Source: Candidatus Woesearchaeota archaeon (GTDB lineage Archaea > Nanobdellota > Nanobdellia > SCGC-AAA011-G17 > PNOQ01). Taken from it: a DNA stretch of 41,202 nucleotides. Below are positions 2,332-20,096 of the stretch, piece by piece. Made by a program: the position numbers and the translations under genes. The stretch spans positions 1 through 41,202 of the forward strand of contig JAGWAE010000003.1 in the NCBI GenBank assembly GCA_018302135.1, read 5' to 3'. Within the stretch, counting starts at the first letter, position 1. The number at the start of each line of letters is the position of its first letter. A model generated the notes under the pieces. It had not been told where the DNA came from, made no database searches, and was given only the letters and a program-made list of their open reading frames with translations.

Positions 2332-3033
2332 TTATTTATTTAAGTATGCACTTGATACTAAAGGTAACATTGCACTAGCAAATTGATTTTCATCTTTAAC
2401 ATTATCTAAAACATACTTACTATATGTTCTAACTTTACCATCATCTAATTTATCAGTTCCTTCTTTTACAAAATATTCTGTAAACTTTCCATTAATTTTT
2501 CTCAATGGACCTCTCTTAAATACATCAACCCAGAATTTATAATCACTGTTAGCTGCAAAATACTTCAAAGCTGCCTGAAGTTCTGGTTCATCTTTATTTT
2601 TTTCAAGATAAAAGTTTATGATTAAATTAGCATCTTGACTTCTCATAACCTGATGAATTATGCCTAAATATTGGTTTAATTCTTTATGTGCTTTTGCTAT
2701 ATCTTTATATTCCCCATTTTTAGGAGCGCCAAGTTGAGCAACCTGTCCTAATAATTTTCCAGAATCAAGAGCAGCCAATATATCTTCTAAATTGCCTTTT
2801 GTTTCACTTTGAAACTTTCTTGCTTCTACATTTCTAGTTGCTTGTAATTCTGCTAAAAATCTATCATCGCTAGCACCTGCAAAAAAGTAAGGATCATCAT
2901 GTAATTCGTCTCCTAACTCTTGTCTTAGTTTAGGGCTATTACGAACTCTTGCATCATCAAAACTTTCTAATGCTTCCTGATAAGTCGCATACTTTTGCAC
3001 TAATTTTTTGTATTCATCAACATTAAATGTCAT
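2332..3033 (-). CDS. Hypothetical protein
   Basis: ORF 233 aa, convergent with the upstream gene; no family recognised. Confidence 0.7.
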   Translation of the reverse strand: MTFNVDEYKKLVQKYATYQEALESFDDARVRNSPKLRQELGDELHDDPYFFAGASDDRFLAELQATRNVEARKFQSETKGNLEDILAALDSGKLLGQVAQLGAPKNGEYKDIAKAHKELNQYLGIIHQVMRSQDANLIINFYLEKNKDEPELQAALKYFAANSDYKFWVDVFKRGPLRKINGKFTEYFVKEGTDKLDDGKVRTYSKYVLDNVKDENQFASAMLPLVSSAYLNK

Positions 3034-3100
3034 TTTTTATCACAAATTTATATGATATAACTAGTTTATAAATCTTTCTATTTTAATAACTAAATAGTAG

Positions 3101-3235
3101 TTACAGTTTCTCAGGCAGTTCTTCTTTGAATCCACAAACTTTACAATACTTTATACTATAGAAACCGTCCTCAAATTTATGTTGTCCTTCGTGTAACTCA
3201 TGACCACATTCCGGACATAAATGTATTTCATTCAT
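3101..3235 (-). CDS. Small zinc-ribbon protein (44 aa), translationally coupled downstream of PEP synthase
   Basis: Not in ORF track. Reverse frame ATG 3235 to TAA 3101: MNEIHLCPECGHELHEGQHKFEDGFYSIKYCKVCGFKEELPEKL; two CxxC knuckles (CPEC, CKVC); start overlaps the ppsA stop (ATGA). Confidence 0.75.
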   Translation of the reverse strand: MNEIHLCPECGHELHEGQHKFEDGFYSIKYCKVCGFKEELPEKL

Positions 3236-5595
3236 TTTCTAGCAGCTTCCAATACTAATCTTCTTTCTTCATCAGCCACAATTTTATTTATAGTTGAAAC
3301 AGCATCAACATTTACAGTTATTTCGTCTATTCCTGTATCAACCAAAAACTTAGCCATATCAGCATTTGAACCAGCTTGACCACAAATACTTGTTTTCACA
3401 TGATGTTTTTTACAAGTCTTTATTACATGTCTAATTTCTTTTAATACGGCAGGATGCATCTCATTATACCATTTCTGTATTCTACTATTATTTCTATCTA
3501 TAGCTAATGTAAACTGAGTTAGATCATTAGTTCCTATACTAATAAAATCAATTCCTTCCTCACAAAATTCATCCATCATCTGAACAACTGCAGGAGTTTC
3601 AACCATGATACCAAACTCCATATCTTCTAATCCCATATCCTTTATAACTTCTTTAGCATGTCTAACTTGCTCTAAATGTGTAATCATAGGTAACATTAAA
3701 CCAAGCTCTTTAAACCCTTTATTTCTAACCCTTCTTAATGCTTCTAATTGAGCCTTAAACAATTCAGGCTGATCTAAATCTCTTCTAATAGATCTCCAAC
3801 CCATCATAGGATTATCTTCTTTTGGTTCGTTTTCACCGCCAACCATATCTCTAAATTCATCAGTTCTTGCATCTAAACTCCTATACCAAACAGTTTTTCC
3901 TTTGAACGCACTACAAACTTTAGTTAAACCTTCTTCTAATCTTGAAATTAATTCTTCCTCTCTTCCATTATCAATTAAGTAACCTGGATGTTCTTTTCCA
4001 GATAATATCATAAATTCGCATCTTAACAACCCAACACCTTCAGCACCAGTAGCAGCTGCTTTATGTGCTAAATCTGGAAAGTCTGCAATAACTTTTATTT
4101 TAGTAACAGTCGGTTCAAGCACACCAATTTTTACATTTTCAGAAACAATATTAATTTCTTCAGCAGGTTTTTCTTCAATATTAATTTCTTCCTTTAAAAC
4201 TTCTTTAGCCCCTCTATAAACTTTACCTGCTTTACCATCAACAGTGATCAAATCATTTTCTTTTAATATCTTAGTAGCATTTCCAGTTCCAACAACTGCA
4301 GGTATTCCCATTTCTCTAGAAACTATTGCTGCATGGCAAGTTTGCCCACCTTCATCTGTAACAATAGCGCTAGCTCTTTCCATTGCTGCAACATAGTCTG
4401 GATTAGTCATCCTTGCGACTAAAACATCACCATGTTTTACTTTATCTAAATCATCAGCTTCTTCTACTATTTTTACATGGCCACTACCTATTCCTGGAGA
4501 AGCAGATATACCTGTCAAAATAGCCTTCTCATCTTCTAACCCCATATTTTGTTTTTCTTCTTCTGCTATCTTAGAAGTAACTTTCTCATTTGTAGTAATT
4601 CCTCTAGTCTGAACTAAAAAAATAGAACTATTTTCAATAGCAAACTCCATATCTTGTGGGGCTTCATAATGAGCTTCAACTTTTTTAGCTAAACTAGCTA
4701 ATTTACCAACTTCCCAATCAGTTAAAACTCTACCAATAGCTTTGTCAGGACTCAACATTTTTTTGCTAGTCCTTCCACTTGTTCTATCCCTATAAAACAT
4801 AAACAACTTATTTCCTATCTTCATATCTTTTAATGTCAAACTATTTTTATCTACAACATATCTATCTGGAGAAACAGCACCGGAAACAACAGCATCACCA
4901 AAACCAAAACTAGCTTCAATAATAACTTCAGATTTATCATTAGTTCCAGGATTCATACTAAACATAACTCCTGCTTTATCAGAATCAACCATTTTTTGTA
5001 TAACAACGGCTATCAAAACCTTTTCATGTTCAAAATTATTTTTTTCTCTGTAATATATTGCCCTAGCAGTAAACAAAGAAGCCCAGCACTGATGAACTGC
5101 TTGCACAACATTTTCAAAATTTTTAATATTAATATAAGTTGCTTGTTGCCCGGCGAACGAAAAATCAGGCAAATCTTCAGCAGTAGCACTAGATCTTACA
5201 GCAACAAAAGGATAATCTTTGGGTAAATTAACAAAACTTATTGTTTTTTTAGAAACATTCATCAAATCCAAATTAACATTCAAATTTTCATAAGCATACT
5301 TAATTTCTTGTTTTAATTCCTTTGGCATTTCAGCTTTTAGAATAATACTCTGAACTTGTTGAGCTGCTTTTTGTAATTGTTCATTATTATCCACGTCGGT
5401 ATTAACCAAAACTTTATTAATTTCTGGTTGCAATTTATTAACTTCTAAAAAATTTTTATAAGCATAAGATGTAACAACAAAACCATTAGGGATTGGAAAA
5501 TGAGCATTATACATCTCACCTAAATTAGCACCTTTACCACCTACAGATGCACCATCATTCTTAGAAATTTCTTGAAACCATAATATATTCTTCAT
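3232..5595 (-). CDS. ppsA: Phosphoenolpyruvate synthase (pyruvate, water dikinase)
   Basis: 787 aa; N-terminal KNDGASVGGKGANLGEM, VAVRSSATAEDLPDFSFAGQQ, phospho-His GGQTCHAAIVSREMGIPAVVGT, C-terminal MVETPAVV...FISIGTNDLTQ. Confidence 0.97.
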   Translation of the reverse strand: MKNILWFQEISKNDGASVGGKGANLGEMYNAHFPIPNGFVVTSYAYKNFLEVNKLQPEINKVLVNTDVDNNEQLQKAAQQVQSIILKAEMPKELKQEIKYAYENLNVNLDLMNVSKKTISFVNLPKDYPFVAVRSSATAEDLPDFSFAGQQATYINIKNFENVVQAVHQCWASLFTARAIYYREKNNFEHEKVLIAVVIQKMVDSDKAGVMFSMNPGTNDKSEVIIEASFGFGDAVVSGAVSPDRYVVDKNSLTLKDMKIGNKLFMFYRDRTSGRTSKKMLSPDKAIGRVLTDWEVGKLASLAKKVEAHYEAPQDMEFAIENSSIFLVQTRGITTNEKVTSKIAEEEKQNMGLEDEKAILTGISASPGIGSGHVKIVEEADDLDKVKHGDVLVARMTNPDYVAAMERASAIVTDEGGQTCHAAIVSREMGIPAVVGTGNATKILKENDLITVDGKAGKVYRGAKEVLKEEINIEEKPAEEINIVSENVKIGVLEPTVTKIKVIADFPDLAHKAAATGAEGVGLLRCEFMILSGKEHPGYLIDNGREEELISRLEEGLTKVCSAFKGKTVWYRSLDARTDEFRDMVGGENEPKEDNPMMGWRSIRRDLDQPELFKAQLEALRRVRNKGFKELGLMLPMITHLEQVRHAKEVIKDMGLEDMEFGIMVETPAVVQMMDEFCEEGIDFISIGTNDLTQFTLAIDRNNSRIQKWYNEMHPAVLKEIRHVIKTCKKHHVKTSICGQAGSNADMAKFLVDTGIDEITVNVDAVSTINKIVADEERRLVLEAARK

Positions 5596-15304: not shown

Positions 15305-15886
15305 TTACAATTCTTCATCAATAATTTTAGAATAAATGGCTGAACTTCTGTACCCTTCTACTTTAAGCCCATTAATAAAAACAGTAGGTAACACACTAAT
15401 TTTTAACTTTTTTGCTAATTCATAATCTTTCAAAACAGATTGCCCATACAATTCATTTTCCATACACAATCTAAATTCTTCCTTAGCAAGATAAACTTCA
15501 CTAGAAAAAACAAAAATGCTTGCATAAGTTATGTTATAATAATTTTCAAATAACTTATCATGCATTTTTTCAAACTTTTTTTGAGATGCCGCACATTCAG
15601 CAGCCATAGCAGAGTAATAAGAAACATTAGTAAAATTGTAATATTTATAAATAAATTTTATTTTTCCTTCATATTTATTTCTCAAATTTTTCATAACAAC
15701 TTCAGAAGAAGCACTATCATTATTACTATAATCAACAAAAGATATTATTGTTACACTAGCATTTTCTGCCCCTAAAAAGGATTTATCTCTCTTAGCTTGA
15801 TTATATGGATTTGTCACAATAGAATATGCCACAATCCAAATAAGTATTATAAGAACTATCCATAAAAAATTCCACTTCTTTTTCAT
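15305..15886 (-). CDS. Membrane-anchored DsbA/thioredoxin_4-fold protein lacking the catalytic CxxC
   Basis: VTIISFVDYSNNDSASSEVVMKNL where DsbA-like proteins have F.D(Y/F).CP(Y/H)C; cis-Pro segment VLPTVFINGLKVEGYRS preserved. Confidence 0.78.
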   Translation of the reverse strand: MKKKWNFLWIVLIILIWIVAYSIVTNPYNQAKRDKSFLGAENASVTIISFVDYSNNDSASSEVVMKNLRNKYEGKIKFIYKYYNFTNVSYYSAMAAECAASQKKFEKMHDKLFENYYNITYASIFVFSSEVYLAKEEFRLCMENELYGQSVLKDYELAKKLKISVLPTVFINGLKVEGYRSSAIYSKIIDEEL

Positions 15887-17987: not shown

Positions 17988-20096
17988 CTAAGATATAATC
18001 CTAGTTGGTCTTGCCTTTTTAGTTATCTTAAATATAACTATTATTACTGCAAAAAGAAGCAAGTTTAACAAAGGAATAACCCAAACACTATGCTCAACTG
18101 TATAATTATAAACATTTTTAATAACTTCTTTAACATCATCAACTGTTTCATCAAAATCAAAGAAAACTACATTATCTTTAGGAATATCATCTGGATCACT
18201 TCCTCCATCTCCACCACTTGATCTTCCAGTTCTTCCACCGCTACCACCACTTCCACCATTACCTCCATTATTACAACTTCCACAGTCAGTTGAACAAGAA
18301 GAACAATCTTCTCCAGAATCACATGCTCCATTCCCACAAGTAGAACCACTATAAAAGCAATTCGATGTTGATCCAATTTTAGACTTAATACAGGCTTCAT
18401 CAACATCATCAATTATACCATCATGATAGAAATCTACCTTAGAATTGTATTCTCCAGATTGAATACTAGCAAATATTCCTATATCAGTTAGACTAACTAA
18501 ATCATCACCATTAAGATCAGCACAACCAGCATTACATCCACAAAATATTCCTTCTACTCTAGAACATGAAATAACTTCGTTTTCACTAAAAAACTTATCA
18601 AAACAACTCTGATCTAATTCGTTTACCAAATGATCATCATTGAAATCTATCCTAGAATCGTAATCGTCATTTAACTTAATACTAGAGAATAATCCAATAT
18701 CACTCAAAGAAAGAGAATTATCTCCATTAAAATCCGTGCATCCTCCCATCAAAGAAAAGCAATTCAACGTTGATCCAACCTTAGACTTAATACAAGCTTC
18801 ATCAACACTATCAATCATACCATCATGATAGAAATCCGCAATACGATAATAATCCCCCGATTCAATCTCAGCAAACATTCCTACATCACTTAGACTAACA
18901 GAACCATCTCCATTAAGATCAGCACAACCAGCATTACATCCACAAAATACTCCTTCTAATTTGGAACATGAAAAAACTTTGCCTTCACCAAAAAATTTAT
19001 CAAAACAATTCTGGTCTAATTCAGTTATCAAATTATCATCATTGAAATCTATCCTAGAATCGTAGTCCCCACTCAACTTAATGTTAGCAAACATTCCTAT
19101 ATCACTTAGGCTAACTGAACCATCTCCATTAAGATCTGTACATCCACCCCCCAAAGAAAAGCAATCTAAACCAGTTGCTCCAACTTGAGACTTCATACAA
19201 TATTCATCAACATCATCAATTATACCATCATGATAAAAGTCTGCTTCAGGATAATAATCCCCTGATTTGATATTAGCAAATACTCCAACATCACTTAGAC
19301 TAACTGAACCATCACCATTAAGATCAGCACAACCAGCATTACATCCGCAGTATAGCCCACTTCCAAAACATGAAATAACTTTTCCTTCACTAAAGAGCTT
19401 ATCAAAACATTTTTGATCCAATTCATTCACAGAACCATCATCATTGAAATCTGCTCTAGACTCTTTATCTCCACTTGACTTAGCACTAGCAAATAATCCT
19501 ACATCACTTAAAGAAACAGAATGATCTGAATTAAAATCTGTACATCCTCCTTCTAAATAAAAACAATCCAATCCAGTTGAACCAATTTGAGATTTAATAC
19601 AAGCTTCATCAACACCATCAATTATACCATCACTATAAAAATCTGCTTTAAAATTATAACCTCCACCTAACTTAATATTTGAAAATAAACCCACATCAGT
19701 TAGACTAACTGAACCATCTCCATTAAGATCAGCACAACCACCATTACATCCACAATAAATGGACTCTGATGAACAAGAAACAACCTTTTTTTCATAAAAG
19801 AGTTTATCAAAGCATTTTTTATCTATATCATTTAACACATTATCACTATTAAAATCTGCTCTTGAATTAAAATCTTTATTCGAAAATATATTAGAAAAAA
19901 TCCCTATATCTGATAAAGAAAGAGAACCATCATTATTAAAATCTGTACATGCCCCAGTTAGATCAGAAGTTACTTCAAATGAAAAACTAGGACTTTCCTT
20001 ACTTTCTAACACAAATCCAACGCAAAACAAAGCAGTAATTAAAAAGAAAACTATTAAACTTTTAGGAGTAAACAAAATATCACGCTTTTTTTTCAT
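17988..20096 (-). CDS. Membrane-anchored protein with eight tandem dockerin-like (paired EF-hand-like loop) modules, Cys-rich CGNGxC motif, Gly linker and C-terminal TM
   Basis: 702 aa; repeated C[TA]D[FL]N.D.S.SL[ST]D[VI]G.F...[AI]DF..D......D..C; STCGNGACDSGEDCSSCSTDCGSC; GGNGGSGGSGG linker; TM VWVIPLLNLLLFAVIIVIFKI. Confidence 0.88.
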   Translation of the reverse strand: MKKKRDILFTPKSLIVFFLITALFCVGFVLESKESPSFSFEVTSDLTGACTDFNNDGSLSLSDIGIFSNIFSNKDFNSRADFNSDNVLNDIDKKCFDKLFYEKKVVSCSSESIYCGCNGGCADLNGDGSVSLTDVGLFSNIKLGGGYNFKADFYSDGIIDGVDEACIKSQIGSTGLDCFYLEGGCTDFNSDHSVSLSDVGLFASAKSSGDKESRADFNDDGSVNELDQKCFDKLFSEGKVISCFGSGLYCGCNAGCADLNGDGSVSLSDVGVFANIKSGDYYPEADFYHDGIIDDVDEYCMKSQVGATGLDCFSLGGGCTDLNGDGSVSLSDIGMFANIKLSGDYDSRIDFNDDNLITELDQNCFDKFFGEGKVFSCSKLEGVFCGCNAGCADLNGDGSVSLSDVGMFAEIESGDYYRIADFYHDGMIDSVDEACIKSKVGSTLNCFSLMGGCTDFNGDNSLSLSDIGLFSSIKLNDDYDSRIDFNDDHLVNELDQSCFDKFFSENEVISCSRVEGIFCGCNAGCADLNGDDLVSLTDIGIFASIQSGEYNSKVDFYHDGIIDDVDEACIKSKIGSTSNCFYSGSTCGNGACDSGEDCSSCSTDCGSCNNGGNGGSGGSGGRTGRSSGGDGGSDPDDIPKDNVVFFDFDETVDDVKEVIKNVYNYTVEHSVWVIPLLNLLLFAVIIVIFKITKKARPTRIIS
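18350..19955 (-). repeat. Tandem ~402-405 bp supra-repeat (4 copies of A+B dockerin-like modules)
   Basis: Shared 10-mer 'ttaagatcag' at 18511, 18913, 19318 and 19723 (spacing 402, 405, 405). Confidence 0.85.

Follow-up and report, generated by a model that had tools for sequence, protein, structure and literature searches.

The window analysed here, a 41,202-nucleotide stretch that makes up one contig of a Candidatus Woesearchaeota genome (637 kb, 88% complete), carries on its minus strand the gene for an eight-dockerin membrane protein. The gene is a single open frame of 702 amino acids (positions 17988-20096), and the Pfam profile Dockerin_1 (PF00404) matches its product in five stretches (2.8e-18; 66.3 bits), the best of them at aa 123-171, in module B1. 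An NCBIfam search of the same protein returned no match. The chain opens with a signal peptide or N-terminal hydrophobic segment (19992-20096; aa 1-35, with a core at aa 14-32 of hydropathy 2.47) and continues with tandem modules that span aa 49-582, a strongly acidic region with a net charge of about -62. Behind the modules lie a Cys knot, CGNGACDSGEDCSSCSTDCGSC (18273-18338; aa 587-608), which carries the motif CGNGAC, a Gly/Ser-rich linker recognised from its composition (18189-18272; aa 609-636), and a C-terminal transmembrane helix followed by a basic tail (18021-18086; aa 671-692), with a Kyte-Doolittle hydropathy of 2.91 at aa 671-689. A preliminary description of this DNA had listed a CGNGxC-type Cys motif, a Gly linker and a C-terminal transmembrane segment, and all three are present after the modules. 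Our best explanation of this layout, tentative as a whole, is a type I membrane protein with a signal-like N-terminus, an extracellular stalk of four dockerin doublets and a C-terminal helix.

No Pfam model scored above threshold against the Cys knot (18273-18338), which is the sole matching stretch in most of the relatives that a search returned. Among the order's large proteins of surface type, a knot of the form CGNGxC...GExCxxCxxDCG recurs in juxtamembrane or C-terminal position.

The modules belong to two classes, A and B. Module A1 (19740-19952; aa 49-119) has its loops at aa 52 and 81 and ends in a CGC hinge, and it is followed by B1 (19548-19739; aa 120-183), whose loops lie at aa 123 and 152, the latter with Tyr at position 3. 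The same succession is found in A2 (19335-19547; aa 184-254; loops at aa 187 and 216) and B2 (19146-19334; aa 255-317; loops at aa 258 and 286, the second with Tyr), in A3 (18930-19145; aa 318-389; loops at aa 321 and 350), the first half of which has B-like codons, and B3 (18744-18929; aa 390-451; loops at aa 393 and 421, the second with Tyr), and finally in A4 (18528-18743; aa 452-523; loops at aa 455 and 484) and B4 (18351-18527; aa 524-582; loops at aa 527 and 555, the second with Tyr). In all, 16 loops of the pattern D-x-[N/Y]-x-D-x6-D were seen, compared with a mean of 0.34 and a maximum of 4 in 2000 shuffles of the protein. The module map and the shuffle test thus confirm the eight modules, the strict A-B alternation and the 16 loops that had been described earlier.

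One A and one B module form a supra-repeat of 402 or 405 bp that occurs four times, as previously proposed and as borne out by lag identities (0.60 and 0.49) and by Tandem Repeats Finder, which gave a period of 402 with 3.5-3.9 copies, matches of 77-79% and scores as high as 1642. Identity ranges from 0.58 to 0.74 among A modules, from 0.66 to 0.79 among B modules and from 0.36 to 0.54 between the two, and since the within-class and between-class ranges do not overlap, the view of A and B as two maintained classes stands. The reported start of the A modules required a correction, the first one opening with GACTDF and not with GGCTDF. The contig is of the metagenome type and the gene is made of tandem repeats, features that would be compatible with an artefact of assembly or prediction affecting the repeat number, the frame or the class assignment. 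We consider this very improbable: the repeat copies are merely 77-79% alike, a single open frame runs across the gene, the A-B unit recurs in two other genomes, and the longest exact repeat within the gene is 40 bases, which makes an artefactual copy number unlikely.

Dockerin fold and cysteine framework

An AlphaFold2 model of one A+B unit, built from ten aligned sequences, reached a mean pLDDT of 85.8 and a pTM of 0.67 and displays a loop-helix-loop-helix arrangement in both modules, with predicted helices at unit positions 14-26, 43-54, 85-95 and 113-121. When this model was compared with the PDB using Foldseek, the top matches were dockerins; the best module match was 2y3n_B (probability 0.99, TM 0.70 by target, rmsd 2.0, 36% identity), and the lowest E-value, 0.027, belonged to the Clostridium thermocellum double dockerin 8x39. 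No match against the PDB reached E<=0.001, as expected for modules so small, and the structural support therefore comes from how well the folds overlap and from the top matches being dockerins. A two-unit model attained just a pLDDT of 77.2 and a pTM of 0.45, so it does not settle how successive units are arranged.

Taken together, the profile, the loop pattern and the fold of the model support the assignment of the modules as type I dockerins. Two of the checks that the preliminary description had put forward for this assignment were favourable, the PF00404 profile scoring well above its curated cut-off (66.3 versus 22.9 bits) and the A+B model overlapping solved dockerins. With type I dockerins the modules share the duplicated loop-helix module, D1-N3-D5-D12 loops and this structural overlap; they differ in being assembled, eight in number, in one membrane-anchored chain, in having extra Cys and a Tyr at position 3 of the second B loop, and in belonging to a genome and an order without a cohesin over the cut-off.

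The Tyr that had been noticed at position 3 of every second B loop is indeed found in four of four, and it takes away the usual third-position side-chain ligand. All 16 loops described are thus present, but the canonical ligand set is complete in 12 of them, the four second B loops being the exceptions; in the relatives discussed below, these loops carry Asp or Asn at position 3. Judging from the ligand residues, each module would bind Ca2+, with two sites in A and with one normal and one weak or altered site in B.

The conserved Cys mentioned earlier can now be specified as eight per A+B unit, all of them invariant when ten units drawn from three genomes are aligned; the hinge core CGCxxGC is equally fixed there, as are, in most loops, the Asp residues at the first and last positions. 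Compared at the sequence level, the CGCxxGC hinge architecture is common to proteins of two other Woesearchaeota. We propose that the Cys located two residues before loop 1 pairs with the Cys after the last helix, which would place a clasp across each module, and that the Cys pair of the CGC hinge may bond with helix Cys and lock A and B as one block.

The best support for such an N-to-C disulfide clasp per module comes from a membrane-anchored protein of another family of the class (L138 in genome G154, 2734-5577), in which every module has a Cys immediately ahead of it and another immediately behind it. This protein resembles ours in its N- and C-terminal hydrophobic segments, its seven tandem dockerins flanked by two Cys each and the lack of a listed cohesin over the cut-off in its genome. 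It differs in having one module class, without the CGC hinge and without A-B alternation, and it represents an independent case.

Relatives and genomic neighbourhood

The distribution of the doublet was evaluated in 103 genomes of the order, whose named members are Candidatus Woesearchaeota, and in 371 genomes of the phylum. Scanning genome contigs with the single protein as query yielded no relatives; an alignment of A-B units recovers two relative genomes. Strong scores for the doublet plus hinge are confined to the source genome and these two genomes, which belong to another family of the same order, and full A-B units in the doublet genomes have E-values from 1e-43 to 1e-57. The remaining matches in the 103 order genomes and the 371 phylum genomes have E-values no better than 1e-10, which fits single dockerins, and no A-B unit was found in the viral contigs, phages and plasmids searched.

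The two relatives, RIFCSPHIGHO2_01_FULL_29_27 (L030/L089) and RIFCSPLOWO2_02_FULL_30_14 (L031/L090), share the doublet, the eight invariant Cys and the CGCxxGC hinge with our protein, as well as the signal segment and the C-terminal transmembrane helix. They differ in distributing the modules over two neighbouring genes with two to four modules apiece, in two additional Cys in their B modules, and in the presence of an Ig-like domain in one gene. Companion domains also occur among the relatives, such as Big_1/Invasin_D3 in L030 and PKD in L097. Within the source family, L093 and L094 are membrane-anchored multi-loop dockerin proteins that lack the Cys pattern and consist of plain loop ladders.

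A grouping of the A and B modules as single clades across families was rejected: the eight modules of the array form one clade (100/99), and constraining all A modules together fits worse (p-AU 0.03), in a comparison of short sequences with long branches. This single clade of eight suggests that the array expanded and was partly homogenised within its lineage, while the hinge architecture is shared.

The gene lies in a housekeeping neighbourhood. The succession of mre11, rad50, sua5, a surface-type protein and a DsbA-like gene is kept in a genome of the same genus (G001) and, in parts, in G002 and G008. The slot between rad50 and sua5 holds the eight-dockerin gene here, several unrelated genes in G001 and one gene in G002; as its content differs per genome, the eight-dockerin gene is a lineage-specific insertion. 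The nearby DsbA-like and thioredoxin-like genes were considered as companions of the Cys-rich protein; for the DsbA-like gene the idea is not supported, given that it is also kept downstream of sua5 in G001, which has no counterpart of the eight-dockerin gene. In the DsbA-like protein (15305-15886) the CxxC motif seems to be replaced by SNND, and the gene adjoins sua5 in the same-genus genome too.

Plain ladders of dockerin loops also occur in adjoining genes of another genome, G297 (L139, 939-2105, and its neighbours), where a 388-aa protein has eight strict-pattern loops and no Cys, and where many more dockerin matches are present.

The constant first half of the modules

The two halves of the module differ in how far A and B resemble each other. 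Loop 1 and helix 1 show 66% A-B identity, compared with 70-77% within a class, whereas the second half shows 28% A-B identity, compared with 61-70% within a class. Among A-B pairs of the first half, synonymous codons agree at 0.65 versus 0.56 expected from codon usage; because this agreement is barely above expectation, the likeness of the first halves mostly reflects constraint at the protein level. The first half of A3, to judge from its codons, was probably partly converted by local gene conversion.

The first loops are marked by a helix-1 pattern, D-x-G-x-F-[A/S], which is found in eight of eight first loops and in none of the eight second loops of the protein. The pattern is also present in both loops of a dockerin-like module on an RHS-repeat protein of the same genome (L009) and in three of four dockerin loops of the sister genus (G002), and it is absent from the 93 loops of the order's other families. 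A pattern unique to the source genome was therefore rejected, as the sister genus has it and another family has DFFxFA. Family f9 dockerins (L050, L054, L056, L069, L070, L080) carry the helix-1 pattern DDFF[LIM]FA across proteins and genomes. As far as these sequences go, helix-1 patterns look clade-specific, and a shared pattern may represent shared ancestry of a clade's modules rather than shared binding. The pattern common to L009 and the eight first loops would accordingly fit either a common partner or a common module ancestry. For family f11 relatives, A-B identity is 0.40 in the first half and 0.35 in the second; with halves that differ only slightly, a constant face does not characterise this kind of doublet in general.

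Partner search and possible roles of the array

Cohesins are the known sockets into which dockerins plug, and a search of the source genome for cohesins had been suggested as a check. It yielded no cohesin partner, with no match at E<=10 in this 88% complete genome, and no cohesin over the cut-off was found in the 103 genomes of the order, 29 of which have dockerins. The cohesin model is able to detect the cohesins of the phylum, given that 17 of its 371 genomes match, all from other orders; nine of these 17 carry dockerins too (Fisher p 0.0008). As the source genome is 88% complete, a cohesin of its own may be missing from the assembly or may have diverged. In a 0.6-Mb archaeal genome (G280), neighbouring genes encode dockerin-like C-termini and cohesin domains (L140), a locus that is likely a genuine cohesin-dockerin cluster.

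Neither a cognate cohesin nor a dockerin-bearing glycoside hydrolase, both elements of a cellulosome-like system, was found in the source genome, and the tandem modules are dockerins, not the tandem cohesins of a scaffoldin. Apart from the eight modules, the genome showed just one that is dockerin-like (18.5 bits, below the cut-off), located at the C-terminus of L009, a 1980-aa RHS-repeat protein; in the RHS homologues of L009 from G001, G007 and G008, a stretch resembling a dockerin occupies the equivalent place.

With eight modules, the protein belongs to the multi-dockerin proteins, which have at least two dockerins per chain. Such proteins are not unprecedented, with up to seven modules in bacteria, as double, triple, sextuple and septuple dockerins have been reported and called rare, with structure and function known just for the double ones (PMC12484212). 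The double dockerin Clo1313_0689 of Clostridium thermocellum (PDB 8x39, 8x3a) resembles our array in its tandem dockerins; its modules pack against each other through a stable interface, and an intramolecular clasp, not described as a Cys pair, is present in the first of them (PMC12484212). It differs in being attached to an S8 protease and in occurring in a cellulosome producer with many cohesins. Archaea that have dockerins and cohesins without cellulose degradation are known, and archaeal pairs have been shown to bind (PMC9012536). In the literature searched, no paper on dockerin arrays of Woesearchaeota was found. Compared with known multi-dockerin proteins, the protein stands out by its module number, by a doublet rich in disulfides and by coming from an order in which no cohesin over the cut-off was found.

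The interpretation we favour, with something short of even confidence, is a surface stalk stiffened by Ca and disulfides that repeats one contact face eight times. The constant helix-1 faces would be the contact surface for a partner, which would be offered eight near-identical sites at the cell surface. This partner would be something other than a recognisable cohesin of the same genome, namely a diverged cohesin-like protein, a protein with a different fold or a molecule that a neighbouring cell provides. Almost as likely, the modules could be rod units stabilised by Ca and disulfides that hold something off the membrane or build the cell coat, with no partner at all. Such a role would agree with an order that has dockerins in 29 of 103 genomes and no cohesin, with the strong Cys reinforcement, and with the free variation of module number and companion domains among relatives (L030, L097, L093/L094); a rod, however, has no need of a constant loop-1/helix-1 half next to a divergent second half, nor of a helix pattern that recurs where an otherwise unrelated protein of the genome carries a dockerin.

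Cohesin-dockerin pairs are frequently species-specific, and neither a host nor a matching cohesin is in evidence, which weighs against a cell-to-cell adhesin whose eight dockerins would bind cohesins on a neighbouring organism, for instance a host archaeon or bacterium, and so put a lock of the cellulosome type to use in attachment. The protein is membrane-anchored and multivalent, the genome is small and of the symbiont type, and cohesins occur in other archaea, including the control genome Methanosarcina acetivorans, ANME archaea (PMC9012536) and other orders of the phylum; even with these points in its favour, we regard an adhesin as quite improbable. It is also unlikely, if somewhat easier to envisage, that the order's dockerins use a socket of non-cohesin fold or the cohesins of another organism, with the stalk serving as a polyvalent surface receptor for secreted proteins that bear such a socket or for a neighbouring cell. 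The preliminary description had proposed a polyvalent, Ca-dependent surface scaffold. Its dockerins, its two classes and its membrane anchoring have held up, and the scaffold role is at most plausible; it would require a partner other than a recognised cohesin, the searches of the genome and the order having turned up none. In cellulosomes the multivalent scaffold bears cohesins, not dockerins, and a polyvalent dockerin scaffold would therefore be the reverse of that arrangement.

Whichever role applies, dockerins in over a quarter of the order's genomes, with a recognisable cohesin in none, make the role of cohesin-less dockerins testable. Attachment proteins are almost unknown in the Woesearchaeota group, for which an eightfold, disulfide-reinforced surface array is relevant, and the Cys-stapled doublet could provide a stiff, Ca-dependent building block for protein engineering.

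The RHS-repeat protein L009 itself appears to be split into two secreted proteins (contig C8, 186-6128 and 9593-10729, minus strand). One is the 1980-aa shell that ends in the dockerin-like module, and the other, a distinct protein of 378 aa, has a signal peptide of its own and opens with the end of an RHS core (RYYDSDLGRFTSVDP...). A relative of this 378-aa piece stands alone in G001 (L116, 335-1486).
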